Positions 3,001 through 60,097 of a stretch of 64,000 bases of DNA are shown here, piece after piece. Numbering within the stretch: the stretch's first letter is position 1; each line of letters begins with the position of its first letter. The notes under the pieces are model-generated. The model was not told the DNA's origin, ran no database searches, and saw only the letters and a program-made list of their open reading frames with translations. The DNA comes from Saccoglossus kowalevskii (taxonomy: Eukaryota; Hemichordata; Enteropneusta; Harrimaniidae), in the NCBI RefSeq assembly GCF_000003605.2, contig NW_003109103.1, positions 118,284 through 182,283 on the forward strand. Direction: 5' to 3'. A program made the position numbers and the translations under genes.

Positions 3001-3868
3001 TTCAGATATGTGGACTAGTGAGTAAGTGATTCTGGCCTTACGCCAACAGTCGTGAAGCATTCATTCATAGATGTTACATATACTGCGACATTGAGTCCTC
3101 TGTTCCGCTGTTCTACTACTATCGCTCCGTTTGAAACCATTATGATCCCGCCTGCTGTGTTTGCGCAGCGCGCTGGTACGCATACAATTACGCCAGGCCC
3201 AAATACTGAACGCAGTCAAAGTACCGCCTCCATTAAAACTACCATATTACTATTCCCACTACTTAAACGTGCGGCCTAGATTTTGTTGTACACGCAGTCA
3301 CATACACTTTCACAATTAGTAATAAGATCGTGTGTTTTTTCGCGGATAAGTCACGTCCGAACCTCGCACTTTTTTTGTTTCTGTTATTCACAGTTTGAAT
3401 CAATTATAGAAAGTAACCTATGCCAGTGTAAACTAAACCACGGGTAATTCGAGGGTTAATGGAGCAGTTGTAACAAAATGGAAAAATACAGTAGGTTTAA
3501 CATTACTAAAGAATGGAAATGAATACTAAAATTGAACACACCATATTAGTAAACAATCAAGATAAAACAGAGAATGTTGCATTACGGGTCTGGATTGCCT
3601 TTGATAATGGTTATTGACAGTGTATGGAGGCGATTCGTGACAAACACAGCGTCGTTTACTAACACATCATCATGCATATGCGAACTATTAAATCCAATTT
3701 GATGGGCTATTTGACAGTCCCCAACTGTTTTGGCGAACTGTAAGCTTCGTGTCTGAGTGGGTACGCTGTACTTCAAAAACAGCTAAGCTGTCGTGCTGGC
3801 TGTCTCCGTGGTCTAGCTATTTGAAATGACTGTGTGTTTTCTGTCTACCCATGGCGCTAGTAAAATTG

Positions 3869-25344: not shown

Positions 25345-25434
25345 GAATCTGCAGATTACACCCAAACCATAAGTATGAATTCAGTGGCCAAAGATAGTAG
25401 AGGTGGATTTATGAACGAGGCTAGGAGAAACATG
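25345..25434 (+). CDS. KIF26: KIF26 first coding exon, upstream isoform (short 5'UTR plus 20 codons)
   Basis: The ATG at 25375 has A at -3 and opens MNSVAKDSRGGFMNEARRNM, ending exactly at a consensus donor (ATG then GTAAGC, phase 0). I recall that vertebrate KIF26B also begins MNSVA followed by a basic, glycine-bearing stretch, which fixes the start. A pyrimidine-rich tract ending TTTTTTGTCGCAG lies at 25330-25344. This exon therefore probably begins at 25345 with 30 bases of 5'UTR and is preceded by a noncoding exon that I could not locate. The frame stays open upstream through this UTR, so a longer N-terminus cannot be ruled out. The exon lies in CpG-normal DNA, unlike the exons from 43.8 kb onward. 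Confidence 0.75.
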
Positions 25435-25639
25435 GTAAGCTTATATTTTTTCTTAAAATGACCAAGACCACAGCACACAGCCATCCTTATTCCGCATTGA
25501 TATTCAAATTAATTCACAACTTTTAAATAATGGACTTGAACTACAAATATCACGCGTCTCCAGGACAACTTTAAGTCGTCGACCTTGGATCAGCTTATTT
25601 TCTTTATTCTTCTTGGTTTTAAGCAGGCAGTTGAACCAG

Positions 25640-25982
25640 CACAACTTACCCTGCTCTACCCACACGGATATATGAGGCGGCTTTTAGAAAAGCCCAGCAA
25701 CAAGGCGTCGTGTCGCACCTTCCTACACCGGTTGGAAATGTCATAGCGGAGAGAGAACGGGAACGAGCAAAGGCTGGTCGTCAGCAACACCTGGATGCTA
25801 GTGCAAATACTGTGTCATCGGCAACAATGCCAAGGTCTTCGTCACCGAGTACCGGCTGTGGACAAAACAGCAACGTAGCCGGGGTTTGGTGTGAACATTG
25901 CAATACCAGACTCATCGAAATGAAACGCCAAGCTCTACGATTGATGTCGCCGAAGATATTGAATGGGACGTTACCAGCAAAG
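25640..25982 (+). CDS. KIF26: KIF26 exon 2: basic N-terminal segment and first CxxC knuckle
   Basis: The open frame reads [20 protein letters not shown], then a charged ERERERAK run, a Ser/Thr/Asn-rich linker, and [19 protein letters not shown] near the end. The last block matches the WCxxC...ELKRQALRL block of KIF26B as I recall it, and the FRKA stretch resembles WYRKA of KIF26B. The 3' border is a consensus donor (CAAAG then GTAAGC at 25983), phase 0, followed in the protein by exon 3 (DNELSATLHEKL). The 5' border is uncertain. The best-looking acceptor (pyrimidine-rich, AAGCAG, ending 25626) leads into an in-frame TGA at 25632-25634. Usable alternatives are an AG ending at 25639 (would need a phase-2 donor) and one ending at 25676 (phase 0, with the pyrimidine-rich CTTACCCTGCTCTACCC upstream). 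An in-frame ATG at 25827 with A at -3 could start a shorter protein. The knuckle cysteines suggest Zn binding. Confidence 0.85.
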
Positions 25983-27525
25983 GTAAGCTATGCAACATAT
26001 GTTTGCCTAATATATATGCTTTAGTGTTTTATTTATGGCGTGGAGGTAATCTAATTGTTGAAAAGTGGCCAGCCGCATTGCCAATGTCAGCTACAATCGA
26101 AGCCATACAACTACTATACTGTTTATAATATGAGCAGATCGCAGTGACAGAACTGTCATAGCTATATATCGACCGCTAACGCCAACATCCATATGTGTGT
26201 AGATCCATGCTCTGACGTTGTGGCAAAGCATATCGCAATGTGTGTAAAATGCCTGCCAGCTTGGCAAACAAACTTCTTGCACGTTGAATGTCAATACAGG
26301 CGATTCCGGTCAAAAGCCGGCCACATGTGACATAATGTTAGTCTTACCATTTACATACAGTGTGCTAGTATTTACTTAATCTCAACTCGTACTAATACTT
26401 TGCCATTTCAAAGCCAAACAGAAACGTGTTAAATGTTTGGGTTCGACTGACTTATTTCTAAAAAAAAAAAGGTCTTAGCGGATGTATGTGGAGTCAAACA
26501 GGTCACATCGACGCTACTAGAAGATTGCTCAGCTATACATTGATCTAAGGTCTTACACCTCCCAAGGGCCATACTTCCAATTGACCTGCTTGTTTAACAC
26601 CAAGGTGTTGCATTCCACGGTAACTCGCTAAAAGTTTTGTTTTCTATCAATATTAATTTACTGGCAAGTTACAATGAATGTGATCTACAACGCCATAAAT
26701 AAATATTTTGATTCGAAGTTTTTTTTAAGATAGATGGCATACCAATTTCCAGCCATGCAGACCCCCCCTCCCTAGATATTTGCTGGAAGAAAGCGTCTTG
26801 ATAGTGGACCATTAGAGATAAAGGCTTCAAACAAGTCTTAGTGTGTTCTAATGATTCGCTATCTGTCCAATTTTGAACAGACGAACTCTTATTCAATGAG
26901 GGCATTTTACGGGATTAGCTAAAAGGCACTCAGGGAAAATCCTCCAAGTGCGATTCAGCACAAAATACATATCAAAGTCTTAGTTTTCACATGGAAGGTA
27001 TTAGTTGTCATAAACTATGACCATCGACCGTCCTTTGATCGTCCAGGAAACGAGGATCATAAATGCATTCATTGGATGGCTATTTTGTACTGCATGGGTT
27101 TCTGCATGAATGACCGTCATGTGGTTTTCCCGAAGATGGTATTTGAATACGTTTATCAATATTTATCTCATGATCGTAAGCTGGAGTTTATAAAACAACA
27201 AAAAACTCCGCTGGCGAACAGATGCATTCCACCGACTCCAGAATCTTTTGGAGGTTCGATGGAACTGTGCCATTATTGTGTGCTAGATTGGCGGGGGCGG
27301 GGGATGCTGGACAAATATTATGTAAAGGTTACGTGCCCCTACCATTATCAGGCAGCTTTTAAATCTGTAACTCAACCCACCTCATTAAATAGCTATATAG
27401 CCTAGATTATTCAATTTGTTTGATAATTGGCCTGGCGTCTCAGGTTTCCTTTTTTATTTAGTAACATTGAACAAAAGAATAGTTCATACTATCCCCTAGT
27501 GTTCAGACGTTCATTCGAAGGTAAA

Positions 27526-27570
<45 letters not shown>
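27526..27570. repeat. AAT trinucleotide microsatellite
   Basis: Fifteen perfect AAT units within the long KIF26 intron, upstream of the CpG step. Confidence 0.95.
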
Positions 27571-27571
<1 letters not shown>

Positions 27572-29493
27572 TAGCACACTGTTGATGGATACATAATCGA
27601 GTTCGTGTCGCTACTATTCTTTGCAATGTACAATATGCATGGACGATCGCAACATTTGAATAGCAGGAATGTACAACCGGTCCTAATTAGCACTCATAAC
27701 CTTGCAGACTTATGCTTCGGTATAATGTAAACTTTTCCGTTCCTGTGTTTATCGCGGGTCAATTAGTGTTTGATTAGTGTAGGAGTTAGATCTTGACTTC
27801 CAGCAATACATCATGAAACGCACCAAGCAGGAGTATTTTAATTGGTACAACGTTCCTTCGGGTGAAATCACCCGAGCATTTAATAACATAACTAGAATCG
27901 AAATTTCGTCACTTCCCCCCTCGAACGTTTATGTTGCAGACTTGCTGTCCTTGTACAAGACACATGCTTCGAACATGGAACATGCTTTGAACTGCTGAAT
28001 ACGACAAATACCGTTATAAAATTCCCCTCCCCAGGGTTGCTAGTTTATGTTGTTGTTGGAGGAAGGGGTTGGTTACGTGAAAAGAAAATAGATAAAGCAG
28101 TCATAGAGGGTGGTGTATTTTATCAGGAGTCTAATGGCTGATGTCTTTTAGTTCTAGGCGCACAAGCGAAATGCAAATGTAGCTTCATGTTAGCATTAGA
28201 AATGACGCTATGTAGTCATATTACATCTGCTAGAAACTATTTCCCCGGATATAGGTGTTTTAACACTATACTATATACAGTAACTCTGCCATGTTCTCAT
28301 TTTAAATCCACGATGCGGATCCGGAGTGCGTTCCATCATTTGACTTCCATGACGTGTCTCAGCGTCGCCTCACATACAACTTTGCGTACATATTAATAAC
28401 TGTATTTAATTTAATACTTCTTTCAACCTCCCGATAACAAATAGTCTCGAAATGTATCTTACTATAATACCCGACAGTGTACCGTGCATTATACAGTACG
28501 ATGATTAGCCAGCTTGGGTAGCTAACCTTGGATAGTTCAAACAGGATATAGCCACAAATTGATGCATGCAGACATCAGCAGGGGTGCATACCAGGCTTCC
28601 TTTGAAGTTAATATGATTATCGCTAATTGAAGTATCTCTAACACGACTGCGCACCGACACACGTGTTCTTTTTTACCGCATCAAAGTGTTGGAAAAAAGA
28701 AACTCCAATTATTTGCATAAGAATAATATTGAAATAATTGGGAGAAATGATGTCAAGGTGCCAATATGGTTTCAGAGAACAGTGGACATGACGTTTTATT
28801 AGCGAAAGAGAAGCGCTCAGAAGAAACTGAACGGCACCCTTCGTGTTAAGGCATAAGCGCACGCAAAGAAAAACGAAAAAAAAAATATACAAACTGAGGG
28901 AAAGAGTTTTCCATAACAAATTCGAAATTAGCTCCGCTCAGATTCGTCCAATTACAACAAACATTCAATCTGACTGTTATACTATTCTCAAGCGCATCCT
29001 CCTAAATGACCCCCTAACCTTTGATGAATGTTAATGCGATCGTGAAAACTCTTTCCTGAGTTTGCTTGTCAATACAGCGACACTGTCAAATTTCATTGTG
29101 CTATATCGACGATGTCTGTTTTGTACACCTCTCATATTTCATTACCTAGGCGGTATTTATTCTAATAGAAAAAAAATACTTGTGCGGTAATATTGAATGA
29201 AACACCTGAGACGGAGGGGAAGAGTAACTTAGACTGACATCGCAAATGAAATAAACATCAAATTACCTATTTCTATTATAACCTTCGACCCCGTGTAACT
29301 TTCCAATCTCAAGCAATTACTAAATATGTCCTGTCTGTGACTAACATGCCAGATAGTTTACAAGTTTACCATTACAATCTCATAAGATTCATTAATTTCT
29401 GTGCAGATGGATATCCAGTCGGCGCAGTATCAAACCGAGTTATAGATGTTAGGCTAAAATATCATCTCCGTAGTTCACTGAAACGAGCGGTTT

Positions 29494-29567
29494 GTACACA
29501 CACGTATATATATATATATGTACACACACTCATACACATATATATATATGTATATATATATATATTT
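29494..29567. repeat. Compound CA/TA/TG microsatellite
   Basis: Alternating blocks of ACACAC and TATATA with GT interruptions, intronic. Confidence 0.85.
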
Positions 29568-32500
29568 AATGTGAATATTTTGCGGAGAGGTTTCTGTGAA
29601 GGAAATAATTTATTAGTTTTTGCATAAAACTTTCGAATGTTAAATTTAAATTGATACTAGTGTTAACAAACACGAGTAACTCCAATCTTGTATTTTGATC
29701 ATGAAACTATTTGCAATTACTATATACTGTTTGCAATACGACACTGACCCCCGAAGAAAAAATAACCAGGTGGGCGTGGCAGTGTTATCCCTCTTCCATG
29801 AATGCACGTCTCTCAACGGGCTGAGAAAGATGGAAATGTAGCAGTGTATCAAAATATAGTAGATATGCAGCGACCTCTTTCCAAGTGAAAAAAAAAAGAA
29901 TCTGCCAATTTAACACGATGCTGTATTTTTCCCATTAGTGTACTTTTTTTTACAAAATTTATAGTTGTAGTTGCAGCTGTTTTTTTAACCTCTCTGCCCT
30001 TTCTTTACATGGAGTGAGTCTCGTGTTACCCCACCTCAGTGTAAGCATCTTGCAAGTTGGATTTGTCGATTTCCTGCAGAAAGTGTTACATTCCCGCGTT
30101 TTGTGTCTGTATGAGCTCTTTTCGTGAGCGTCTATTGACTTAAAAGGCTTTTCGTAAAAAAACATAGATAGTATGATTCAGTCTAGCAGCTTCCCATTAT
30201 CTCAGACAGTCCACTGTGTCTAAGTACCCATATTCGAAGCTTATTAGCAATGACAGGGGACATAGCTCTCTAGAGAAATGCCTATACTTTGTTACAGAAC
30301 CTCACTTGAGAATAGTTCTCTTTAGTCGTAAACTGTCAATGGTGTATCGAAAATAGCCATGCAAAAAAGTCTCACAAAATTTTTCTTTTAATTCTGGGGG
30401 TGTTCATGACGTAGCATGGTATCACCGTGCATGTGTGCGCGTACCCCATTGCCATACGGCGGTGAAACACGAGAAGCCAGTGAATGCTGTAATGCTGAAG
30501 CTCAAATCTTTAATTACGTGCATGCGTGGATGAAAAGAGAGCGATGCCGTTATCTTTTTTTTTTTTTGAGTAGACCGCTAGTGTTTCAAGTGGGCGCACT
30601 AAAACATAGTAATTACAGCGAAGGAAAGTCTGGTACTAATTTAATTACCAGTGACGTCGACAAAGTCGTTATTGAGTTTCCCCCATAACATTGTGGATAA
30701 ACCATTACAAATCAGGTGATGGCATGCAAATACTATTTTGGAAACATTTGTTGTGTATGCATTGTGTGATGTATACTGAATTTATATACACCTCTGAAAT
30801 GTTGACGTTTTTAATATGTGCAGACATTCCATATCATAACCCCCCTCTCAGTTTATAAATGGTTGCTTCCATTATAAGAACAAAAAAAGGTAGGATTTCT
30901 CAGAGGACTGCATATGCGGCACTTGTTATGACTGCCACTTCAGCCTGAGTTCGCTGTAAAATCACACCCAAGTTTTATCGTATTTAGTCTGGTGAGATTT
31001 CAGTAAATGGTATGTCCAAGTCAAGTGATTTAGTCATTTTGATATAATAGCTTCGTCATACCGTGTGTTCAACAACACAGACACAGGATGGACAGCTTGT
31101 TTCCATCAGATAATGCAATGCCCAACGGCAATGTTTTTCTTTGTGGATACTCCAAATACTTACGTTGACTAGGTCCATCATCGTCAACAAAAAATACACA
31201 TAAATCATGTTTGAACTTTAAGTTTATAGTCATCGCAAACATGGTTGAAGCTGTAGTTTAGTGTCCCCCCAAAAATTCAGACTCTAACGGGGCGTGGCTT
31301 GCCATGTTACGCGTGAGGTATGTTTCAGCGTGGAATGTTACATAATAATCCTGGGTTCATATGGTTACAGATAACAAATTATGTGAAATACTTCTGATAA
31401 TTCGCGAACATGCCATTTGAATTAAACTAAGAGCTACCCTGGGAATCGACGATGAAGTATACAGGTTGTCAAACTTTAATATATGCCTGCATAGGATGTT
31501 AGTTTTCACCAGTACGCTTCGACCTGGTTTCAGTCCAGCGTATCCACGCTTGGAAAGAAAAACACGAAAACAAACAAAATGTGCCCATCGGTGTTTGCAT
31601 TCTTTGGAAGTAAAAGCATACATGGCAGTTCCACGCTCCCGGACAATTTATTTTTTTAACTTCGCTCTCCGTTTGAATTTTGCCAATGAAACGCTCTTTA
31701 ATCAAAAAATGTGTCAAGTACCCCCATCACCACCATGCCACATGTTTGTCAGCTTCTCTGCCACATGGCAAATATAACGCACTGGATGATCTCGTGCCTG
31801 GAACAGGTGCATCCATTTTATGTGGAATGTACACCCCTGAGCGTATACCAATCAATTGACAGTTTTTGCATGTTACGTTTCTATTCACAAATGTGTTATT
31901 TAATATTTTGTACGAAGAAGCCAGCCATTTGAAGTGGAAAGAGAGGGGAAGTGAAAAGATGCATTAGTAATTGTCAACCAATGGAATACGGTTTCAAAAT
32001 ACACACATTTTACATAAAATAGACTGAAACTATGTCTGAAACTATTGCCTGGCACAAAAAGTATAAAATGAAATAACGACTAATGCACGTGGTATGTGGT
32101 TCTTACAGGGAGTAGTTAGGTGAAAATGTTGGCAAGTGTTACGCCATGTTAAATTCTTCTTCCCTCCCATCCGCAATATTGAATGTACCAAGTACTCTGT
32201 ATCAATTATGGCCAGAGTACGTACCTGCGATATTTTCAATTCGTATCCACGCATTTTCGAAATTAAGTACACGAGATTAGTACCAGTGTCAAATACTATA
32301 AATATCGCCGCAAATGTGAGCTTGTAGGAGGAGCGTATTTAACAGCCTGCCTCGTGTCATGTGCAAATGTTTACTTAGTATAAAACCGAGTGAAAATGAT
32401 GTAAAGAAACACTAACGTATCCTCATAAAAACAAAATATTTAGCTGAATTTTTCCTTCCAGCATTTTTCGCCAGCTGAGAATTTTACAATCCATTAGAAA

Positions 32501-33190
32501 CCAGTATTTCCGGTAGACTAATAAATCTCCCCTCAGATGTTTATTTATAAAAATCAAATGAGGCAAGTCGTGGGAATATTAATTGGCTTACATTATTGAC
32601 AATGAAAACAAAATGCCTGAGCAATGTCCCTCTATCTATAGAGGGATTGTGGCCTGAGCTTGATCTTTGAGTGAGTTTGTGTATACTGCCCTCACAGTTA
32701 AAACGACAAAATGAACTGCGTTTACGGGTTGGAGCGATGGATGTTCCCCGGGTGTTTTGTGAGCCATTCTATAGACATCAGCAATGTGAATTTTTCCTAC
32801 CATTTATTTAATGAACAATTTTAAAACTAATTTAAATAACTAATGTCCCGCATAAATCTTAAATCAGCACACATTTTTCGCTGTTCAATACAGTGGATAT
32901 TCGAAAGTATATTTAACTTGCCCCGCGTCGAAATGGTATAGTCGGACGTTTAATTGTTTGCACCTCTCACCTCCTGGGAACACTTCCGGTGGTCTGATCT
33001 GGAAACAATAACTTCAGTAGTTGTGTCGAAATGTTGACAAATACTCACAAAATGTAAGTTAGTGCGCATTTTCTCGTGTAATTATGGTCACTTAGGTTTA
33101 TATAACTTCAAATATTTGTTATTTGGACGACTGTTACACACATTATTTTTTTTCGACGGCGCTTCCTCAATCTGCTACAAGATGGGGAGT

Positions 33191-33202
33191 GGGGGGGGGG
33201 GG
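33191..33202. repeat. G12 homopolymer
   Basis: Twelve consecutive G after GATGGGGAGT, intronic. Confidence 0.9.
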
Positions 33203-33310
33203 ATAGAGCAGATACGTATTTGGTGTGGTAGCAACTTCTACGTTATTTTAGGTTTTCTATAAAAAAAAAAAACATTACCTGTGAGCCATAATGCATTGCA
33301 GTTTTATTAA

Positions 33311-33317
33311 GTATTAT
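33311..33317. repeat. Left target-site duplication of the 400-bp element (GTATTAT)
   Basis: The seven bases directly precede the CAGAGG end of the element and are identical to 33718-33724. Confidence 0.75.
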
Positions 33318-33717
33318 CAGAGGTACATAACTTGGGGTTTGCAACTACGGTGACATGATACCAAGATCCCGTTACAATCTCGCTCTCGCATAAGCGTTCC
33401 AACTCAGAAAAATGCGAATGCGCATGCCCGAGGTAACTAGGATACTGGGATGTCCAGGTGGATCAAAAAAGCTGCCCACGATATGACGGATTACGAGAAT
33501 TATATTTTCTGTACATTTTCGATGTATTACATTTTTCACTACGATAGTGGCAAGAAAAGTTTTATTTTTTCATTACAAACCTTGAACATTGATATGTGTC
33601 ATGTCAGAAGGTCGTAGCCTCAGTCTCGCTATCTAGAGATGAGACTTCAATGGGATCTTGACATGATGTCACCATACAGTACTATGCGAGTTGCAAACCC
33701 CAAGTAATGTACCTCTG
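33318..33717. mobile_element. 400-bp nonautonomous DNA transposon relic (hAT-like MITE)
   Basis: The element has long imperfect terminal inverted repeats that begin CAGAGGTACAT on the left and end AATGTACCTCTG on the right. The arms continue as inverted copies through CTTGGGGTTTGCAACT and, after a roughly 15-base insertion in the right arm, through GGTGACAT and CAAGATCCC. Immediate flanks are a perfect 7-bp direct repeat GTATTAT (33311-33317 and 33718-33724). The interior has no coding potential. CAGAGG-type ends are usual for hAT elements, whose duplications are typically 8 bp, so either one base has been lost or another superfamily is involved. It lies inside the long KIF26 intron at the CpG step. 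Confidence 0.8.
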
Positions 33718-33724
33718 GTATTAT
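33718..33724. repeat. Right target-site duplication of the 400-bp element (GTATTAT)
   Basis: The seven bases directly follow the CCTCTG end of the element and are identical to 33311-33317. Confidence 0.75.
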
Positions 33725-33748
33725 GTAGATCACTGATGCTTTATGCAA

Positions 33749-33933
33749 CCTTTTCACCACCAGTTTCCTCTTTTCATCACAAAAAAAGTCCCGACAAAAA
33801 ATAGGCAAATGTTTGAGTAAAAACTGAAAATTGACTCAAATTTTGTCTGTTGGCTCCAAAATTAGGGTTCATTTACAGAAATATTGAAGAATATAAGAAA
33901 AAATTTGGGTGAGAAACTCTTGTGGTGAAAAGG
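33749..33933. mobile_element. 185-bp MITE-like relic with CCTTTTCACCAC ends
   Basis: The left end CCTTTTCACCAC and right end GTGGTGAAAAGG are perfect 12-bp inverted repeats, and the next bases also pair loosely (AGTTTCCTC against GAGAAACTC). The right flank is TTAA (33934-33937). The left flank is GCAA, which could be a decayed TTAA, so a TTAA-targeting superfamily (piggyBac- or Kolobok-like) is possible. The interior is A/T-rich and noncoding. It lies only 24 bp from the right duplication of the neighbouring 400-bp element. Confidence 0.55.
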
Positions 33934-34038
33934 TTAACTTAGTTTATTGTTGATCACCTACCACTCCTTTTCAAATATTATATAGTCGTTATCCGTCATG
34001 AGATACAATGTGGTAAAATTCATCCTTGAGTCACTGTC

Positions 34039-34175
34039 NNNNNNNNNNNNNNNNNNNNNNNNNNNNNNNNNNNNNNNNNNNNNNNNNNNNNNNNNNNNNN
34101 NNNNNNNNNNNNNNNNNNNNNNNNNNNNNNNNNNNNNNNNNNNNNNNNNNNNNNNNNNNNNNNNNNNNNNNNNNN
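34039..34175. other. Assembly gap (137 N)
   Basis: The sequence is unknown. The right edge enters a TA repeat. Apparent reading frames across it are artefacts. Confidence 1.

Positions 34176-34226
<51 letters not shown>
34176..34226. repeat. TA dinucleotide microsatellite bordering an assembly gap
   Basis: About 25 TA units run directly out of the gap at 34039-34175, so the gap is probably filled by more TA repeat that the assembler could not resolve. Confidence 0.95.
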
Positions 34227-34230
<4 letters not shown>

Positions 34231-35697
34231 TATGCAACTGTCAACCTCATTAATATAGATGTTGATGTTGTCAACTTGCGATAGCAATATTAAATTTAAC
34301 TTACAAGTGGATGTTTTATACCCAATCTCACTAAATAATCAAGTAGTACGGTATATGTTTATTGATCAATACAATTACAACAAATTGATACTTCATAAGC
34401 AACAAACATTCTAGACACCAGATTGGTTCATGCAAGGCACGCACCCCTCGATTCCGTAACAGGATTTCTATGATGTTATTTTTTGAGTTTTGGTGCAAAT
34501 TGCAAGTGCACATGTGAGTGAGATTCCCCACTCTGATATCTAGTGGTGTACAGCGCCCTCAGTGTTGAGTCTTGCATTCTATCCTGAAGGCATATTATGC
34601 ATCACAGTCTTGTATTAAAACAAATAAGATCCTATTCCTTATTTCCCTTAGTCTATTTACAACACTAGATTTAATTTCTAACAATTCTATAAATATTTTG
34701 CTATTGCAGCAAATCAATAAGCACATTGCAGTGATTCCATTTTGCATTTCAGTTGATGCAGTAGACTGGATTTAATTAAACTTTTGCATTCTGTCTATCC
34801 TGCAACTATTAATGTTATTTCAGTATTTTCAAATTAAATAGTTTCAAAGTTGACGTATTTACAAATTCAGTATAGTCGACTGAGCATGGTGATTTAAAAT
34901 TGTCAGAATAATGTATATGAATCCAGCTGGTTTGTATCTTTCTTTTTTTTTCTTTGCGTTTCTCTGTTGTACTGATTATTGATAGGGTGGTTGTTTCACT
35001 GCAAATTCCAAAAGCCATAGAATTGTTGACTCTGTATTCGATTTCATGTAACTGGCAGGTACTAGCTTAGTGTAATCACTTTGACCAAGTAAAGGACCTA
35101 GAATGATTTTAGGTGGCATACAAAATGTTTTGTGTTCGCCATGAAAGCAAAATGTAATTACCAGTACTCATTTTTCATTATTGATATTTGATATGATCAT
35201 GGCTACTTGGATGCCTTGTGTAAGTGTGATAAATATGGCCTTCCAATTGCATAATGGCAGGATGGAATGCCTTTTACTTGAAGTTTATTATATTAGATCT
35301 ATCACTTTAGATTGCAGGTAATATACCAACAACTGGTTTTGATTCTTAGCGATAATAGAAATATTTCTTTTCATATCTAATTTACTTATTTTTGTGTGTG
35401 CCAGTAAATATAGCTCTGCTTGCTGAACCGTCCAATGTTCAAGGGCAGATATCTTTGCTGTATGTCCTTACCCCACAAATTTGCACATTACTGAAGTCCT
35501 GTGTCAACAAGTCTCAATAACTTTGATGGCATTTCAAGAGCCCCATGGTGCCTAGTGTCACTTGCAGGTTTAGTTGCAGGTCCTATTTGTATACACATCA
35601 ATCATTACATTTGATGTAGTTGAATGCACCTTGCAACTTGCATACTTCTGACTGGATGAACTGTTCGGGATATTTCCGCTGCGATTCCATTTGTTTT
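34227..35697 (+). other. Start of the CpG-poor domain, upstream of the alternative first exon
   Basis: CpG falls to 7 in 34321-34920 and about 4 in 35001-35600. No exon was recognised. A promoter for the 35.8 kb exon would be expected toward the right end. Confidence 0.55.
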
Positions 35698-35746
35698 TAT
35701 ATATATAAAAAAAAACGCAGTATGATGGATATAACCCGTATGTGCC
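35698..35746 (+). promoter_or_regulatory. TATA-like core promoter candidate for the 35.8 kb first exon
   Basis: An A/T-only tract TATATATATAAAA covers 35698-35710. A start site about 30 bases downstream would fall near 35730-35746, where a CCAGTCCT stretch resembles an initiator. This would give a 5'UTR of roughly 65-80 bases before the ATG at 35809. A 10-codon upstream ORF (35740-35772, MCQSSVACLW then TAA) would lie within or just at the start of that UTR. TA-rich sequence is common here, so this is suggestive only. Confidence 0.35.
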
Positions 35747-35808
35747 AGTCCTCTGTTGCTTGTCTTTGGTAAAATTGGAAGTTCTTTGCGCCATTTGGAA
35801 ATACTGTC

Positions 35809-36000
35809 ATGGAAGATCTTGATGTATCATGTTGTGTGGATGACAAAGAGTTCAGTTTTTACAGGGGTATTTTGGAGAACATACCCTATCTTTGGGATGA
35901 TCCAACTACCAGGGAGTTTCTGCGTCAAAAGTTTTCACCATACTCTGCTGTACCTACCTATAACTCGTGGCCTCTGACAGCAAAAGCAGTCAAATCACGG
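35809..36000 (+). CDS. KIF26: Candidate alternative first exon of KIF26 (64 codons)
   Basis: The ATG at 35809 lies in a strong start context (GTCATGG). The 192-base reading frame ends exactly at a consensus donor (CACGG then GTAAGA at 36001), phase 0, so it joins exon 3 at 43845 in frame. It encodes an acidic start (MEDLDVSCCVDDKEF), an aromatic-rich middle (FYRGILENIPYLWDDPTT) and a basic end (TAKAVKSR). I do not recognise this sequence in vertebrate KIF26. The ENIPYLWD stretch faintly resembles the start of MADF-type domains, too weak to claim. The isoform would lack the MNSVA start and the first CxxC knuckle. The exon is GC-richer than its surroundings and sits just inside the CpG-poor domain. 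Alternatives are an internal cassette using an AG at 35780-35781, which gives a 219-base phase 0/0 exon (35782-36000), or the first exon of another gene. There is no homology support, only ORF and splice-site evidence. Confidence 0.55.
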
Positions 36001-36068
36001 GTAAGATCTCATGTTTAATACTGGTAGAAATCTTGCATGTTTAATACCGGTACTGGTAGAAATCTTAC
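36001..36068 (+). other. Tandem-like duplication and potential hairpin over the 35.8 kb exon donor
   Basis: CATGTTTAATACTGGTAGAAATCTT (written in parts: CATGTTTAATAC, TGGTAGAAATCTT) is followed at once by a second copy with a short CGGTAC insertion. The donor GTAAGAT (36001-36007) is perfectly complementary to ATCTTAC at 36062-36068, so the splice site could pair with the end of the second copy. Confidence 0.6.
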
Positions 36069-39000
36069 GCGGCCATGAATATTATTTTACACCATTGAAT
36101 CTTGTTATGTATTCTGTATATAGCATGATAAACAACTTGTCCTTCATTTCCTATCTCTAACTGAAGTATTCATTGTCAATCATTTTAGATTTATTTAGAC
36201 CTAGGAAGTTACTCAGTAACTTGTTTGTTTTGAAACTTGGAAAACACTAGCCCCCAATGAGAACTGTTCATATTTTAATTTTGCAATCTAGCTAATACGT
36301 AAATATGTTAATACATTCTACTGAGATTTTGCTGTTGCAAAGTTATATAATTATTTAATTGCTGATTTTTAACAATATCCTTGGCTTTTTTTAATTTCTA
36401 TCCATGTGCTGTGCCAAGGTTTCAGCCTGTTATTGAACATGGGGTTTCGGCTAAGATAGCATAATTATTTTAATACTTTTGTAAAGCAGAACAGTGTAGG
36501 ATTATAATAATTTTGGTCTGATGTGAATCGGAAAGTACAACAACCACCTGAGTGGTGTTGGGGTTTGCCTTTTAACTAAGTATGATCATGAATAGATATG
36601 CTGTGTGGCTGTGTATATTCATGCATCTCTTACTTATTATTACATATGTAATGTGATATTTAGCGAGGTGTTTATTGAACTGAAATCTGATCAGAAACAA
36701 ATAATGGTAAACTTTACAAGTATGATGAAAGGCTTCAGCATGTTGGGTGAAGCACTCCTTCAGATTCAGCCCTGATATGTAATGAATATTCAGCGCCTGG
36801 TGTCAACTTCTGCCATAGAGACTTGCCTGTGTGTGCAAATCTGTACTTTTAGTGGCATCTACCGTTCTGATTTTCAGGTATTTTACTTTAAATGGTAGAC
36901 CTATTCAGCAAATGCAAAAAATGCTCTTAAATTGAAATAGAGCCTGTCACTGCATGAGGCAAGTGTAACCTGAAATAACTGCAGAAATTCAACCGTTTCT
37001 GCCTTTTCTTTACAACATCGCACCTTGCCATGCAATCCCTTTCATAGCACAATAAGCCAGGTACAAACTTAGCCTTAAGAAAGAATAACAGCTATTGAGA
37101 GTACATGTCATGGGAAATTTGATGTAATAGCTCGGAGAGCTTTAGCTAGTAACAGGGAATGCTCGTCTTAGAGTGTGGTCGCTTTGGTAGGCCATTCTCC
37201 TGTTACATGAACCAGTTGTAAAGGAGTTGTTAATTACATTTAACTTGAATAGCCCTACAAGTTATTGTACTAGCTAAAGTGTGGTATTCATATCAACTTT
37301 TTAACTACATGTACATGTACATTAGATTAATTTGAAACAAGTTTTGTCAGTTAGAGCAGCAACCGGTGGATCAAAATGTCTTTAAACTTGCAGCGCCAGA
37401 TCAGTCACTGTGCAGCTTCTCGATTCATAGTGAGTAAAGTATTGTTTCCTTCTTCTAATAAACCGTAGGGGAGATTTTTTGTACCAGAAATAGTGGTTGA
37501 ATGGTAATCTGACTGACATTTCACTTTACTGAATTGACTGGTTATAGTATTCATCCAATCATTCATTTATATGGTAGGGATTAATCATCACCTACTCATT
37601 GTTGTTTGTTGAAATGCTCCTCCCTATTCATTAACACCATACTGTGATGAATGAAAACTCAGATAACCAGCAAGGCAATTCAATCAGTGCGGCATATATT
37701 GCTCTTTTCATTAGCATCCAGAGTTGTACAGTACAAAGTGAACTCAGTTCCCATGTCTGAGAAGGTTTCTATTTTAGGAATCCCGTATGTTTACTCTTAG
37801 AGTTTTCACAGTGTATCCTAACAGATGATTGTAAACATTTGCCAAGCGATGTCCACTGACCCCCATATCCAGGTAAGTATGGTTGTCATACATGGCAACC
37901 ATTGTACTCTGCGCTGTTCTCCACCAACACGAGAGCCGCATGCGCCGGGTACTAATGTCAACTGTGGGTTGTTTTAAATCATTCAAAACTGTTTTCAGCA
38001 TCATCGGAGATATAAATAACTACAGGTTTTGGTGTAAGGCTCATGAATTCTTAATTGTCGACTAATGGAGAATGAAATGTCAGAGGCTAAGCACACCTGT
38101 AAGGCATATACAGCTGTTTACTTGCAGAAATTTATGGCTTGTCTCAAATTCTTAAACTTTCCCATACAGTAACTATGGAAGGACCCAGTAAACCATGCAA
38201 TGGTTGAAAGTAACAGATGCCATAAAGTTGTACCCGTATATCATATCAAGTTCAATGGGAATTTTAGTTGATGCTTTCAATTTTTGAAATGACTGTTGCC
38301 TTTTAACTCCAAGGTTGAGGCAACTAAAGAGGTGATACTGGCCTGATTTATATTCCCCCATAGTATTATTTAAGGGCTGACTGGCTTGCTAATCTTTCTT
38401 TGCATTGTAACTGTTTTTGAAAATTAACATCTGTGGGAATTACATGATGCATCTGATAGGTTGAGACTGTTTTATTGCTGAGCAAGTTTTTCTGGTGATT
38501 ATCTCCTAAAGTATACGCCATCTAAATATTTTATGTGTTACATTGAATTTTTTTTTCGCCCACAAATCTGATTTCATCTTTAAATTTAGCTGAATTATAA
38601 TAGACAGATGTGGGAAACTGATATGTTTTTGCTTTTGGTACCATTGTTTTGTCAAGAGTTGCATAATTTCCTTTGATATACATATACTTAGATACTATTC
38701 CATTAGTTAGACGCTAATGCCCCTTCCCCTATAAGTACAATAGATTTGTACAATACATTTATATAAGAGATTTTTTCATGATAAGTGTTGTGCGTCATGA
38801 TCATTGTATACACTACATGACTAGTTAGTTTGTTAATGAATGAATTTCTCCAATTCACCAAACTGAATGTTGAACAGACATGCTGAGTGTATATTTATTA
38901 ACAACTTAGTGACCGTTACATGTACCTGTGGATAAGTAGCTGACTTCATACCTACACGCCCTGGATACAAGTCATTTTATTTTGAAATTAGTCTGGTTTG

Positions 39001-41715
39001 TTTTCTCTTCTCAGGTTGCTCGGTACATATCTGTTTTATTGTTGATTGGCAATACTTAGTAACACCCCCCTCATCTTATACAAATCTGAAATAAAAATAT
39101 TTTCAATTTAATGATGAGTGAGCAGCAACTTTAACGATTGGTGCTGTTAATTTGTTTGTCTTTGCATGGGAAAGACTTGGACCATGTTAAACTGTCTGGA
39201 GAGGGACTTTAAAATTGAAAAGTCATAGAAATCATGTCATGTTTCCATGGTGAGATAATACCTACAATAAGAAGGTGCTTTAAATCTAAACTTAGGTTTA
39301 AGAGTTCAGTTTCAGTCTATTGTGTTGTAGTAATGCTTCCTTGCCATGTATTCATGTAGTAAATACTTTACCAGATAGCAAAGTACATACTAACCCTGGA
39401 ATGCAAGTATTTTTCCTTTTTGCTCAGCCGGCGGAAAGTGCCGAAAAAATAGAATAATGCTTTTGGTATGTTCAGTGAACGTGAGATCACGCTCCAGCCC
39501 TGGTGTCTAGAATTGTAGAACTGATTTTGTCCAACTTATTTCTTATAACTGGCTTATTTCAAAGTGTGTAACATTTGATTAAAATATTTTTTGAAATTAG
39601 ATGTCTTTAAATTAAAAGTTGACATATCCATCTTCACCTAGGTTAGATAAAAGAAAATATAAATAAAATGGTTTGATTGACATTTTAATTTTAAAATAAT
39701 CATAGTGACTCCAACTTGTAATATGGGTTAAAGCGGGGGAGTCGTCACCTGCATACGTGTCAGATGGCCATAGCGTGTCAATGCTTACAAACAAGTGTCT
39801 ACCCATGAGCCTTTGCGTTTTTTGGCGCGTGTTGTTATCGTCGCTTGAGACTCGATTCCCGTGCGTGCGCAGGTGACCACCCTTCCACTTTTATGTTACT
39901 TGTTCCCATGTTCAGTGTTGGGGAAAATACCTAATTGTTAATTATTTGTGATGGATAGACTATGTAACATAGAAATTCAACTTATTAACATGCTCTTTGG
40001 CATAATTCTTAACTTCAGCTTTTCCAATGACTATTGGGCCAATTCTGTGTTAAGCATTAGTCAAACTTAACTGATATTGTTTTGTCATGGAGCTCATTTG
40101 CACGTAATTTTAAGTAAAATATATCCACTATTTGGCCCAATGTGATTGCTTTTACTTATTTGTTTCTTTTTACTGGCAGTTTAAATGAACTGAATATAAA
40201 CACAGTGAATATTCAAAATATAGAATGTATTGTTTCTGTCACAAACCAGTAAATTTAAAATTTAGTGAAAATCTCTACATCATTCAATCCCCTCATTTTA
40301 TGCTTGGGCATGCAGTGATCACATGCCATGTGCTGATCCAAGCATGACATCATAGTGGAGTATGCCAGCCGACATGAAGCTCATTTGAAATTAATGTGAG
40401 GTATTTTCATATCATATTCTCTTCATGTCCTCGCCCTACAATACCTTCAGCACCACATTGAAGCTTCTTCTTTGATCTTACTTCCTCTTCCTATTGTAGT
40501 GCATTGTATTTTTTATGGTAGCAACAGTAATACCGGTATTATAGTTTGTCACTGTCATTGATGCAGAGGAAGTTCAGATGAATAATCAGTATCCCACCCA
40601 TAATGGACCTTATTTTCTTTAAGTAATGGATAGTGAGAGATTTATGTCCATTATATGGTCTAGGTCTTGGTGTGGGTTTAGCCTGCTTGATTTATTTTGA
40701 CATGGCCTTCTCTCATGATTCTGAGTTCAAGGGCAAAACTCTTATGTGATTATAGTCCTGTCCTAATTTTCAAAACGCCTATCCTTCGATTTTTACTTCT
40801 TTGACCATCCCAACATTTTCTGAACTCTAACAATATTTTAATGTATATTTACATAATATTTTAAGGTTTTCATAAGCATAATGGCTGTGAATATTGATAA
40901 GGACATTAGTACACAGAAGGTAGAAGGTAACTGTAAGCAGCATTGCAAACATGGATATCAAATCCCTGTGAAAGTTTATATGAAAACTTTCTCTGAGTTG
41001 AGAGCCAGTGTTTTGTCTCCTTGACCCAACACATCTTAGAACAAACATAAATAGTAGCTAGGAGGAGCAGTGATTGACCTCCTGGGACTATAATGATACT
41101 AATGAATTGCAGGGTTTCCTGTGAATATCCTAAACCACTGGTAGGACGTAATAAATGATGCAAAAATATGGATACCACAATACGCATAATACTATGTAGT
41201 TCATTGTTCTGCGTGGCTACTAATACATATGACAAATAGATTCTGAGCTCTAGACAATTGAGAGGTTTCATCTTATTTTAGATAGACCCTCCCCTTTCCC
41301 CTCCCCTTCTCTCCTTTGAAATAAATCAGGTTGGTCCAACCCAAAGTGATTTTTGAAAACAAATGTTAATCCTTGTTACAGTATGAAAGTGGAATGTTCT
41401 AAAAATAATACACAGTTACTTAAAGTGTTAACTTAATATGCCATTGGTAATTGGGATCTCGTATAGGAACGCTGCCAGGAGCTCTTCTCCTGACTGGTTT
41501 ATCCTTCATTTAACAGCAGACAGTCTAGCTATTTTTAAATCAAATGTTGCAGTTTGTATTATAGTGCTTCCGAATTCTTGTGAATTCTTGTTTTGATATT
41601 TCCATGACCATCTCTCCAATTGATTTGCAAAATACATAATTTTTGGTAAACTTTAACTTTTAAAATTAATATGTTATGATTTTTATTATAAAAATTAATA
41701 TATCCATGATTATTT

Positions 41716-41730
41716 TTGATAGAGGGCGCC
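41716..41730 (+). promoter_or_regulatory. Partial CTCF-like core
   Basis: TAGAGGGCGCC matches the CTCF core at positions 5-15, but the first four positions do not. This is a weak candidate within KIF26 intron sequence. Confidence 0.15.
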
Positions 41731-43844
41731 ATTTTCAATTGGTTTAGTCCCAAAAAACACATAAAAATAGATCAGGCTTCTCATTGTAATCAATACCCAA
41801 CATATCAGTTTTAGATATTTTACATTTTTATTGACAAAGCTGTGCAGCATATCTGCCTTATTCACACATACTTGTTTGCAAACGTCATCAAATCAATATA
41901 TGGTCTTCCCTGATAATTGTACAAGCTCCAAATACCTGTTATTTCTCAATTAGTAATCCCTTATTACTTGAGAGTGTAGGAAGGAGAGCTTATTTGGCTT
42001 CCTCACAAACAAAATAATTTCCCTTGCATGTTATCATAAGGTTTGTTATTATTATTCTAAGTGATTATTGTGTGAGAGCCTGCCCACTGAAATGACCCTT
42101 ACGATAAACATGTAGAATTTCATGCCACCATCAGCAAACTGAGAATTACAATTTTGAAAACAATCCCTGATAACGATATAAGAGTTATTTTTAAATTTTT
42201 AAAAAGTAAATCTACCGATACAGATATTGATTGGCATACTCTGAATGAAAAATAACAGAACTCTAAATGAATTGGGTTTGGTGTATGCAATCAAAATGTT
42301 GTCATTAGAAATTAATTGCTATTTCCTTTGCTTTCAATTCAATACTCACTCATGCATGGCTTTTCTAGCTGTCATAGCATACTTTAATAATGTATGGCTA
42401 CAGTCCACATAGTAACAGTATTGGTCTGATATTTGTTTATGTGCTACTTGTTAGCTCAACATGTGCTTATGGGGTTGAGGGTATCCCAGCATGCGATTCA
42501 GTTACTTGTTTTCATACTCTTGTCCATACAATTTACATCCGTTTGTATGTGTCCCCATGTTGCGTATGGTAGCAATTAGTAGTCTGGCTGAATTTCAAAC
42601 TGTTGTTCATTAAGACTGTGTAGTTGATTTATGGTGATACCAGTACTTGAATAATTCACCAACTGATGAAGCTTTACTCATATTGTAATATTTAAAATCA
42701 TGTTGGTAAAATAATACGTCTCATGGAACTTGACATTTTCTTTTCACTTTCTGAGGAAGAGATTGGAAAAGACGGGGTTCTCAGAGCAATTTTCATGTAG
42801 CCTCATTAAAATGAATTCACATTAACCCTAATCTTGTCAGTCCCATGTACTTTCACTTGGTCTTGACCACGTAAGGGTTAAGCATCCAAGAGCACAGTGT
42901 AAGCAGTACCAAAAGATTGAAATAATATGATGTCCAGGACTACTTTTTTTTTTGCGAAAACATCACTGTGAACTGTTAACTGGATATTATTTCTTTTAAT
43001 TTATCACTTGAAAGTGTGTAATGAAAATAAATAAAAGTAGTCAGAATTTCAGCTGTCGGCCATCATGAGTGAGAGTGTTCATGACATTGTTGGGAAGTGT
43101 GTGATTTAATTAGCCATCTACTGAATAAGGCTATCACTGTTGCTTTTGGTTGACTCCCCTTTGTGTTATATGATGTCACTTACAAAGTTAATGGTGTCAA
43201 ATAACACCCTCACTTCTTCCACCCATGGAGCTCCATGTTCCACCTTATATTCACTGAGCTTGGTACACACTGCTATTCCAGCATGTGAAAGGAAAACTAT
43301 TGATAATTTGTCTTAATATAAAATTGCATCATTTCATTCTCAGCTATGTTTCTCATTAGTGTTATTGCATAAAGGTTAGCTTTCCTCCTCTCCAGGGACC
43401 CCCTCCCTGACTCCCCTTCCATATAATGGGATATCCCAGGCGTGTTTCTTTTGTTTGCCTGTTTGTTGCCAGTTCAGTTTTATCTGTACATCAGAGGGCA
43501 TGGATGACCGAATCATTGTGAATGATCACTTATGCCTGAAGTCATTGGTCCTATTAAGAAAATTGAGAATAGAAAAGTTGTAACAGATTCCAATTTGAAG
43601 ACAATAGAATATGCATGGATTCGACCTAACGTCCCAGTTGAATAAGCCAGAGGATTTAACTGTCAAGCTTTACTTGTGGGTGATTTTTTATCACCAACAA
43701 GACTATTCCAATGGAGGTTTACACATGTACTCATTCAACAACTACTATGGTGTGTTTCTGTTTTTGTTTTTCAACTTACTATGTATCTCATTTCAGTCAG
43801 TAACTGTGTTAACATATTGTCTTTTTTTCTTTATTCAATTGCAG

Positions 43845-44291
43845 GACAATGAACTATCAGCCACCTTGCATGAAAAACTTCAAGTGCCTGACACCTCTCA
43901 GAAATGGACGGACAACCGCTGCGAAGTCTGTGCAACACACCTTAACCAACTTAAACAAGAGGCAGTTGCCATGGTGCATTCCCTGGAGAAAGCGCATTCT
44001 AGTGGCGATACCTCTTCTCTGAATAATATCCCAGCATTAGTGGGATCTCGCAATCTCTCTTCCTTGCAGCGATGCCTTTATATGTATCATTCCCATGATA
44101 AATCATCCGCTGCTCACTCCCGCCCAAGGCAAACCAAAGGTGTTTTTGGCAATGCTATGTCTTCAATGAAACTAGCTGCACAAGCACAACAGTATCTTGA
44201 AGGTGATGGACACAGTGGCTTGCCAGTGCCAATGCAGCCTGCATCAGCTTGGAATAATCCACCTACAAGTGCCTTTCCACCTCACCATCCT
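43845..44291 (+). CDS. KIF26: KIF26 exon 3: second CxxC knuckle and QYLEG block
   Basis: The acceptor is pyrimidine-rich (TTTTTTTCTTTATTCAATTGCAG) and ends at 43844. The donor is GTAAGT at 44292. The exon is 447 bases, phase 0 at both ends, and encodes 149 residues. It opens with DNELSATLHEKLQVP, then NRCEVCATHLNQLKQEA, NNIPALVGSRNLSSLQR, and AAQAQQYLEG, and ends in a Pro/Ala/Ser-rich tail. These blocks match in order the KIF26B segments I recall around DKLQVP, RCDICATHLNQLKQEA, NIPTLVGSR and QAHQYLDG, so the call is secure. The second knuckle repeats the one in exon 2, and together they probably form a zinc-binding unit. Because the exon is symmetric in phase, skipping it would keep frame. 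The frame is also open for 78 codons upstream within the intron, which I regard as chance. Confidence 0.95.
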
Positions 44292-48512: not shown

Positions 48513-48688
48513 GCTTCCCACAGTAGTGCAGGCAGTAGTAAATCTAGTGCTTTATCTGATGCATCTAGTAGCAGACCAAATCAACAGTATGGTATGCTGG
48601 CCTTAACCAATGTTAGTAAATCATCACCAATGAGTTCTAATGCTAGCACAGTTTCCAATACTTCTGCAGCTGCTTCATTCTTTGCAAG
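48513..48688 (+). CDS. KIF26: KIF26 exon 4: Ser/Ala-rich linker ending in SFFAR
   Basis: The acceptor TTTTTTTTCATAACAG ends at 48512 and the donor GTAAGT starts at 48689. The exon is 176 bases, entering at phase 0 and leaving at phase 2. It encodes a low-complexity Ser/Ala/Asn-rich linker (ASHSSAGSSKSSALSDASSS) and finishes with NTSAAASFFA plus two bases of an Arg codon that is completed by exon 5. The SAAASFFxRAAQKL junction is a hallmark of vertebrate KIF26A and KIF26B as I recall them. The linker itself is poorly conserved and is likely disordered, with many possible phosphorylation sites. Confidence 0.93.
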
Positions 48689-55039: not shown

Positions 55040-58000
55040 TTATTTTACTAGTACTGTATTTAGTAAATTAAAGGTCCCTCGATGTCTTTCGTACAAATTT
55101 AATATAATATTTACTGGTTTCAGACTAAAGTAAGGCTATGGAGTTCTAATCCATTTGGTCATATTTTTTGATGAACGTTCATACATTAATCTGCTTAGGT
55201 AATCCTTACTACTAATGTGTCTCAAATTTCAGATGTGAATGCTACAATGTTTCTATGACTTCACAAAATGTCATCGTACCACAGTTTTACATATTATTTT
55301 GTCTAGTTGACATTAAACATTTCAAGCTCTGTGAGGCTAACATTGAACATACAATTTCGTGTGGTTGACATTGACAAACTAGAGTCGTGTGTATACAGTA
55401 TGAATGAACTGATTATATGGATAAACTAATCTCCTTGTCATGCTTTGTTTTATCTTTCAAGCATATCTTGAAAAAATATTTAAAATTACTGGTAGATTTC
55501 ATATTCGTTTATTGACCCTGTTTGATTCACTAATTAAAAAAAATATTATCTCCACATAATCCTTGAGCCTATGTAAATCAGTTGTAAATTTAATTAGTTT
55601 ATCAGTCATTTACAATTCACGTCATTCCAGGTCTTCTCAATTTTGAAGTTGACAAATTTGGTTAATTAATTTCACTCGTGATGAGCTTCATTATGCAGCA
55701 AAGTGTGTTGATTGACGATGCTGTATCATTTGCCGGTAAATGGGGTATTTGAAAGTACCCAACGGCAGTACTGGATTGTGATTGGCTGGGCAACTGCCAT
55801 TGATCACATACTTTGTCATATTTATAGTGATAGTGTTGTGCGATAGGGATTGTGTCAATGTATCCAATACAGCAAAGTCGTGTGGATTAGTCTGTGGAGC
55901 ACCTTAGCAATCTTGCAGTCTCCCTCAACCTTGATGAAACATTTTTAACACTGATGGCCGATGATTAGAAACAGCCTGATGAACCATGATTAAGGGGTAG
56001 GTAACTGTAACGTTGTTGGTAACTTTCCATTCTATTTCTCATTACCTTCTTGCCATGCTCGTCAGTTTGACTGACTGGGTCGTGATCATAGCTTGACTAA
56101 GGTTTATTGTTTTGTTTGGAATTTTCTATTGTCAATGGCTACAAAAGACGACAACATGCTTTTCAACATCACACTGCAGGCAACAAGACCACTAGAATGG
56201 TAACTTTTATATTCTTTCATTACTTTGATTGACAGCTTGCCAATCAAATTTGTATTTTCTCTCTTGTCTAAGCCTCATTACTAAAACAGACAGCAATAAA
56301 ATAAACACCACAACTATGATAGGTGATCTATTTATATAAACAGTGATGGTTGAAACGGATTCTTTGTTGTACTTTATATATAGTGTAAATGTATCTTTAT
56401 CATACCATGCATGTCAGAGGCCCTCCTAAGCAGTTGTTTCACCTGCTCAATTGTGACATATCAGTTTTATTTTTACTACATTGGCATCTTGAGGCATTTT
56501 ACCCATTTTGTTCTGCCAAGGACATTTTAAAGTTGCGTGCGAAGCCCATCAAGTGTCATTTTAAAGCAAATCTATCACTATTTCAGATAAATTAGTTAAA
56601 AATCAGTACTTAGAGTGAAATGTAATTTGTCATCTAATCTCTAGAGGGATTTGTTTTCTATTTGGAACGTCAAGGAGTTAGGACATTGCAATTGTTGTTC
56701 GGTTGATTCTATTCTTTTACTATTGAGAAAAATCTTTCGATGAATATGATGAAATTACTGAAAATTTTCATGCATACATGTAGCAATACAGATTTTCAAT
56801 GCAACCAAGTTGCGGTTATTTATATCCAGTTCAAATTACATTTTGTGTTTACACTTAAATATACTGATACTTACTTGTGAATCTGTATATTATACCTTGT
56901 GCAAATTGTTTTTGTTTTATCCATACTGAGAAGCAAAAACATTTTTGAAAATGCTTTTTCCTTTGAGATATTGGTTATCAGATAATGTGTGCAGTGTGCC
57001 ATAGATCATGGTTCTTGTTAAGTAAAAACAAACGCTATCATTCGATCCAGACTGAATGTCTACTAATGCTAAAATTGTATGAAGAAGTGAACAACTTTAT
57101 TCCGCCTGAGTGGTCAGCTTCAGTAGACATAGAGAAGTGTGGTTCGTAAGAAATACAATCATGAAATTCAATAAAAGTGAGAGTGGTTTTAAATAACATT
57201 GGTTGTGATTGCTCCAGCTTGTCCATATCAATTGTTCCAATGGACTCGATTAGCCAATTTTCGTGTGTACAATATGAAAAGCTACCAATTTGTGTTTTGA
57301 ATGACGCTGCTTTGTGAGTCGGCTCACTGTCGGTGGGGATTCTGCTGTTTTTCATACAGCGTATGCCGGCCTTTGTGTGGGGACAACAAAAAACTATTAC
57401 ACGCCACTGCATTGTTGGATTTATTCAGCAACTGCATGGACATCATTCAGTTCTGTCTTGCTAGCTGTCATGTGTATAACCAGATCACTATCTGCCGCGT
57501 TGAACTAAGTCACCCACACTTTTCACCACATTTTGGGATTGGTTACCGGGTTTCGACTGAATACCATGCTCCCAGTGGCACACCTCTCCTGCAGGTGGGA
57601 TACCTTCAATGTTTTCCTAAAATTTCCCTTTCCAATCAACTACTTTGTATCTCCCTAGTGAGCATCTCAGTTTTCAATAATTAAGTGTAAACACAATGTT
57701 TCTGTTTGGATCTTAATTGTATGAGTAGAAATAGTTCAGTAAGTTATCCTGAGAATCAAATGTAAAATTGTACAAGCAATTTTATGTAAGAATAATGGTT
57801 TCTACTTCAGAATTCGTGAAACGGACTGCAACGTTGCCACTTCACTACAGCTTATCCTGTCCATTTTGCAAATGGAAAAGTTAGTAATGGCATAACTACA
57901 GTATATTCTCTTACAAGCAATTCATAGTTTAGATGTCTTCTTGTCCACTTCAGTGTCCAAGAGGACCACCTAAGTTTGATTTCTATGTAAATGAGTGATT

Positions 58001-59913: not shown

Positions 59914-60097
59914 GGCTGCACAAAAATTGAATTTGACTTCCAAAAAAAAGAAGAAACAGACATATCCCCAAGAACCTGTGAATCCAGAGCCCCCGGTTTT
60001 CCCAACTAACTTTGGAGATTGTCTCCTGAAAAATTCGCCACCGGCACCACCATGCCTGTTGAGAAGTGGCCGAAGGGAAAATCCAGGAATGGGAAAG
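59914..60097 (+). CDS. KIF26: KIF26 exon 5: AAQKLNL basic block and PPAPPCLLR, just before the motor domain
   Basis: The acceptor TTTTTTTACAG ends at 59913 and the donor GTAAGG starts at 60098. The exon is 184 bases, entering at phase 2 and leaving at phase 0. It completes Arg and continues AAQKLNLTSKKKKK, then PEPPVFPTNFGDCLLKNS, then PPAPPCLLRSGRRENPGMGK. This tracks KIF26B (AAQKLNLxSKKKKH, EPPLFATSFSGIL, PPAPPCLLR, GLGK) almost block for block, as I recall that protein. The lysine run could act in nuclear import or microtubule contact. In vertebrates GLGK runs straight into VKVMLRI, the first strand of the motor domain. No acceptor followed by such a sequence is visible before the window ends, so the protein is truncated here by the window and not by mutation. 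Confidence 0.95.

Follow-up and report, generated by a model that had tools for sequence, protein, structure and literature searches.

The window, the whole 64-kb stretch of DNA that was analysed, covers bases 118284-182283 of a 325-kb contig, and the genome searched amounts to 572 Mb; its gene content points to an animal host. The original prediction placed it in KIF26, and this assignment holds (Table 1). Tblastn with stretches of human KIF26 finds the N-terminal exons inside the window and the motor exons downstream of it. Pfam profiles give the same answer independently of these stretches: PF23081 (HTH_KIF26A_B_1st) matches exon 2 (E 1.9e-9, 38 bits against a cut-off of 27, positions 1-33) and exon 3 (E 1.7e-16, 60.6 bits, positions 32-83), and PF00225, the kinesin motor domain, is above its cut-off in the three downstream exons tested, all on the same strand (L004:806-1012, 2472-2705 and 2870-3037). 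The Pfam scan assigned no family to the MNSVA exon, exon 4 or exon 5. We take the MNSVA exon to resemble the start of human KIF26B, and the SFFA end of exon 4 presumably runs on into exon 5 as in KIF26B. Past the window end, at about 103400-111650 on the window scale, minus-strand tiles of coding character point to a neighbour gene downstream of KIF26; it presumably resembles CFAP61, and we suspect a cilia-associated gene. On the other side, at about -54600 to -53400 (L017), long open frames look by eye like a retrotransposon ORF1 protein.

Table 1. Features of the KIF26 locus, in window positions.
Feature	Position	Strand	Remarks
MNSVA-containing exon, presumed KIF26	25345..25434	+	30 codons, all open; both ends in phase 0; upstream acceptor 7.3
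KIF26 exon 2	25627..25982	+	first CxxC; phase-0 donor; 5' end uncertain
TATA-like run	35698..35711	+	about 100 nt 5' of the leader ATG
Short upstream ORF	35722..35772	+	16 codons, then stop; same frame as leader
Candidate alternative first coding exon of KIF26 (leader)	35809..36000	+	64 codons, MEDLDVSCC...TAKAVKSR
Splice donor GTAAGA	36001..36006	+	phase 0; 5.4 bits
KIF26 exon 3	43845..44291	+	second CxxC; presumably the exon to which the leader is spliced; acceptor in phase 0; donor 3.1
Exon 4, KIF26 by inference	48513..48688	+	3' end SFFA; phase 0 at 5' end
KIF26 exon 5 (AAQKLNLTSKKKKK...)	59914..60097	+	tblastn match to human KIF26B

An alternative first exon in intron 2 had been proposed to replace one of two duplicated knuckles of the protein. 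Both CxxC motifs are present, but they are not separate knuckles. The exon 2/3 junction cuts PF23081, so that the two motifs represent the two halves of a single tri-helical domain of 85 positions and may jointly bind one zinc. An isoform that begins with the leader would therefore lose part of a domain.

MNSVA, taken before to be the normal start of the long form, may not be that start. The exon is open throughout, a strong acceptor lies just upstream and its junction to exon 2 is out of frame in the assembly. With the best exon 2 acceptor (25627, score 4.2) as the junction, the MNSVA frame runs for 39 codons before a stop, and the frame of the knuckle has a stop just after the same acceptor. 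Since the exon is open in frame 5' of its ATG and follows an acceptor at 25345, translation could begin further 5'. Either a base error in the assembly or different exon boundaries would explain the frame clash, which makes any account of what the leader replaces provisional. About 4 kb before the window, on the KIF26 strand and about 29 kb upstream of the MNSVA exon, L008:5950-6063 is a phase-0 initial-exon candidate of 38 codons (MSDRRGEDTERHGQVA...MATQTEV) with a codon score of 7.8, a donor of 6.1 and a best Pfam match of only E 0.14. It could be a first exon of KIF26, because the MNSVA exon is in phase 0 and has an open frame on its upstream side.

The leader, in the intron between KIF26 exons 2 and 3, translates without a stop into 64 residues. 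Its predicted start context, 64-codon frame and phase-0 donor matched to the acceptor of exon 3 are all borne out by the sequence and the splice scores. The ATG has G at -3 and G at +4. On a splice-site scoring matrix the donor CGG/GTAAGA reaches 5.4 bits, compared with 6.9 for that of exon 2, and the 192 nt of the leader leave phase 0, in which the exon 3 acceptor (score 5.8) opens 170 codons. The genome search found a single copy of the leader in the 572 Mb, the window itself, and no repeat overlaps the exon between 35400 and 36400; an origin from a repeat was rejected on these two grounds. Just 3' of the donor, at 36010-36066, are two short direct repeats of 17 and 16 nt. The TATA-like run upstream is weak evidence for a promoter, because the 64-kb window contains TATATAAA 7 times on the same strand. 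The short upstream ORF, which counts against the leader as a first exon, would be part of the 5' UTR of any transcript that begins 5' of it. A bacterial promoter scan of the region was discarded as having no bearing on an animal gene.

We compared the codon usage of the leader with that of KIF26, using a full model built from 10 KIF26 exon segments and a background of 409 open 64-codon tiles outside those segments. The leader obtains a log-ratio of 2.5, a value reached by 8 of the 409 background tiles and, on cross-validation, by 25 of 28 KIF26 tiles. Several of the 8 look like true exons. Of the 8, two lie just past the KIF26 tail exon on the same strand, one is antisense to one of these, and two lie further down on the minus strand, at what we presume to be the cilia-associated gene. 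When one more exon is added to the training of the full model the leader drops to 1.5, and a model trained only on the N-terminal and motor exons gives it -3.9, with 50 of the 409 tiles as good. Its composition, measured against the average protein, is equalled by 31 of 399 tiles. Together these measures provide moderate support for a putatively coding leader.

The leader also reads like a first exon, as the original prediction had it: an initial-exon score that combines start context, codon log-ratio, open length and donor gives it 15.4, compared with 15.9 for the MNSVA exon. The alternative that survives best, which we find doubtful and yet take seriously, is that the leader owes its open frame within a long intron to chance, happens to end at a good donor-like site and is never used. 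Simulated intron sequence speaks against it. Order-2 Markov sequence does not reach the leader score in 4 Mb, and order-4 sequence does so twice in 4 Mb, both times outside phase 0. Likewise, a simple criterion (an ATG, at least 64 codons and a phase-0 donor at least as good as that of the leader) is expected about 0.01 times per intron (0.013 per 17.9-kb intron in order-2 sequence, from 2 hits in 150 simulations). However, these simulations flatter the leader, because both strands of the real 204 kb contain 13 initial-exon candidates that score above it, 7 in KIF26 exons (one of them, at 92651, presumed so from where it lies and what it encodes) and 6 not identified as coding. If all 6 were false, chance would produce about 0.26 such candidates per 17.9-kb strand.

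The real 64 kb, searched on both strands, hold one other phase-0 place that satisfies the simple criterion, 57301-57594, with a 98-codon ATG frame and a donor slightly better than that of the leader. The codon score of its scored part, 57360-57594, is -15.4, and its best Pfam match has an E of only 0.28. It is likely a decoy and an illustration of what chance yields in this DNA. The chance reading gains from this decoy, from a leader composition that is only moderately protein-like, from the negative score under the N-terminal and motor model, and from the failure to find a leader homologue in the databases covered. In contrast to the decoy, the leader has a codon score under the full model that lies within the range of KIF26 tiles.

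The search for such a homologue covered Pfam, NCBIfam, PHROGs, the PDB, and viral and prokaryote contigs, and yielded none. No family of Pfam, NCBIfam or PHROGs is above cut-off, and no PDB sequence matches the leader. Viral contigs gave 3 pattern matches, none of them a relative, and prokaryote contigs gave 101, including one of 24 residues at 54% on an archaeal contig that we take as chance; a prokaryotic or viral origin, which would depend on this one pattern-selected match, was rejected. AlphaFold2 run on the single leader sequence predicts helices at residues 12-24, 26-29, 32-42 and 54-62 with a mean pLDDT of 60.8, rising to 70-75 over residues 11-40, and a fold search with this model returned one PDB match, at E 9.7, and none better. 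A resemblance to MADF/Myb-SANT-like domains, suggested by an LWD motif, was dropped, as Pfam does not list the family for the leader. The literature searched gave no report of the leader exon, which says little, since the sources contained no catalogue of KIF26 transcripts.

The best Pfam hint, PF20263 (LYRM2-like; E 0.048, residues 18-43), is not kinesin-like. It fits a second alternative, in our judgement improbable, that the leader belongs to a different gene lying within the intron, as its real first exon, as a short coding gene in itself or as what is left of one after decay. The hint carries little weight, because shuffled leaders also draw Pfam families (3 of 10, E 0.14-0.28), and at 14.6 bits it is far below the curated cut-off of 26.8; a LYR-motif protein was rejected for these reasons. 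The nested-gene reading also draws on the acceptors that lie between the leader and exon 3. On the plus strand from 36030 to 60000, 9 acceptors score at least 5.8, that of exon 3 included, and three of them, at 39015, 39428 and 43396, are both stronger than that of exon 3 and closer to the leader. These three, however, open only 14, 9 and 4 phase-0 codons, and the first strong acceptor 3' of the leader to lead into a coding exon is that of exon 3. Exon 4 (acceptor at 48513) opens 59 phase-0 codons, and splicing of the leader to it would also be in frame.

Exon scans of the region bear on the same question. A strict scan of 25.4-60.2 kb recovers exons 3, 4 and 5 and one decoy (codon score -15.4) on the plus strand, misses exon 2, and finds nothing on the minus strand, with an insensitivity apparent from its yield of 2 of 7 KIF26 control exons and a fragment of a third. 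A looser scan finds all 7 controls with scores of 14.7 and up, although the same exons also trained the model. Its best internal-exon candidates on the plus strand score 9.6 in 36001-43844 and 9.9 in 26000-35808, and on the minus strand of 26000-43844 the best scores 11.3. Intron 2 thus holds no internal exon comparable to the weakest control in a scan that passes over terminal exons, so that a short two-exon gene would still fit. That a scan which detects every control finds no comparable internal exon makes exon 3 the likely partner. Should the leader be spliced to coding sequence at all, this would likely be KIF26 exon 3, or else exon 4.

Furthermore, the acceptors around the leader suggest that it is a first exon. 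From 35600 to the ATG no AG scores above -1.5, and the one within the leader that precedes 35865, with a score of 1.4, would break the reading frame; the leader is thus most likely a first exon or nothing. A cassette exon between exons 2 and 3, which would add some 73 residues inside the tri-helical domain, is hardly credible: the frame has no stop back to 35773, and an acceptor at the AG before 35782 would produce an in-frame exon of 219 nt with phase-0 junctions on both sides, but this AG scores -6.7, and use of the one before 35865 would give a length that is not a multiple of 3 and put exon 3 out of frame.

On the present evidence from the DNA, the case for 35809-36000 as an alternative first coding exon of KIF26 is evenly balanced, though this is the most economical reading of a well-formed candidate. 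Such an exon would be driven by a putative promoter inside intron 2 (17.9 kb), and its donor would be spliced in phase 0 to exon 3. The product would start with MEDLDVSCC... and lack exons 1-2, and with them the first CxxC and about the first third to half of the tri-helical domain. It would retain the second CxxC together with the motor-like domain and tail. With a single remaining CxxC, the N-terminal domain would probably be unable to bind zinc or to fold as in the long form. The leader, helical in a low-confidence prediction, may offer a different binding surface or merely supply a translation start. KIF26 would then exist in two forms, each under a promoter of its own, whose N-terminal domains would function differently. 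More tentatively, a second promoter in intron 2 and a lineage-specific helical leader that replaces the first CxxC and the front of the tri-helical domain could alter the N-terminal partners of the protein and make it deployable independently of the long form.

Alternative first exons are a commonplace source of protein variants. The mechanism would be ordinary, and its consequence, if true, would be a KIF26 in which the leader takes the place of part of the N-terminal domain. An isoform built without part of this domain would provide a natural test of the domain's role. The KIF26 literature, in the portions consulted, describes roles in Wnt5a-Ror signalling, axon guidance and neuron migration. 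Human KIF26B has an N-terminally truncated isoform in database annotation, a likeness to the candidate in that both are KIF26 proteins without the N-terminal region; unlike the candidate, the truncated human form starts further downstream and has no added leader. An excerpt on the C. elegans KIF26 orthologue vab-8 describes long and short isoforms, either of which partly rescues neuron migration (PMC12533845). As would be the case here, one gene of the KIF26 family makes products of different N-terminal extent, but the short vab-8 form is without the motor domain, whereas in the candidate the motor would stay and only the front of the protein would differ (PMC12533845). Likewise, an intragenic promoter in intron 17 of ADGRB1/BAI1 is reported, in the part of that source available, to give novel isoforms, as proposed here for KIF26; in that gene active-chromatin marks and transcript variants were looked up, whereas the KIF26 candidate is known from sequence alone (PMC11711277).
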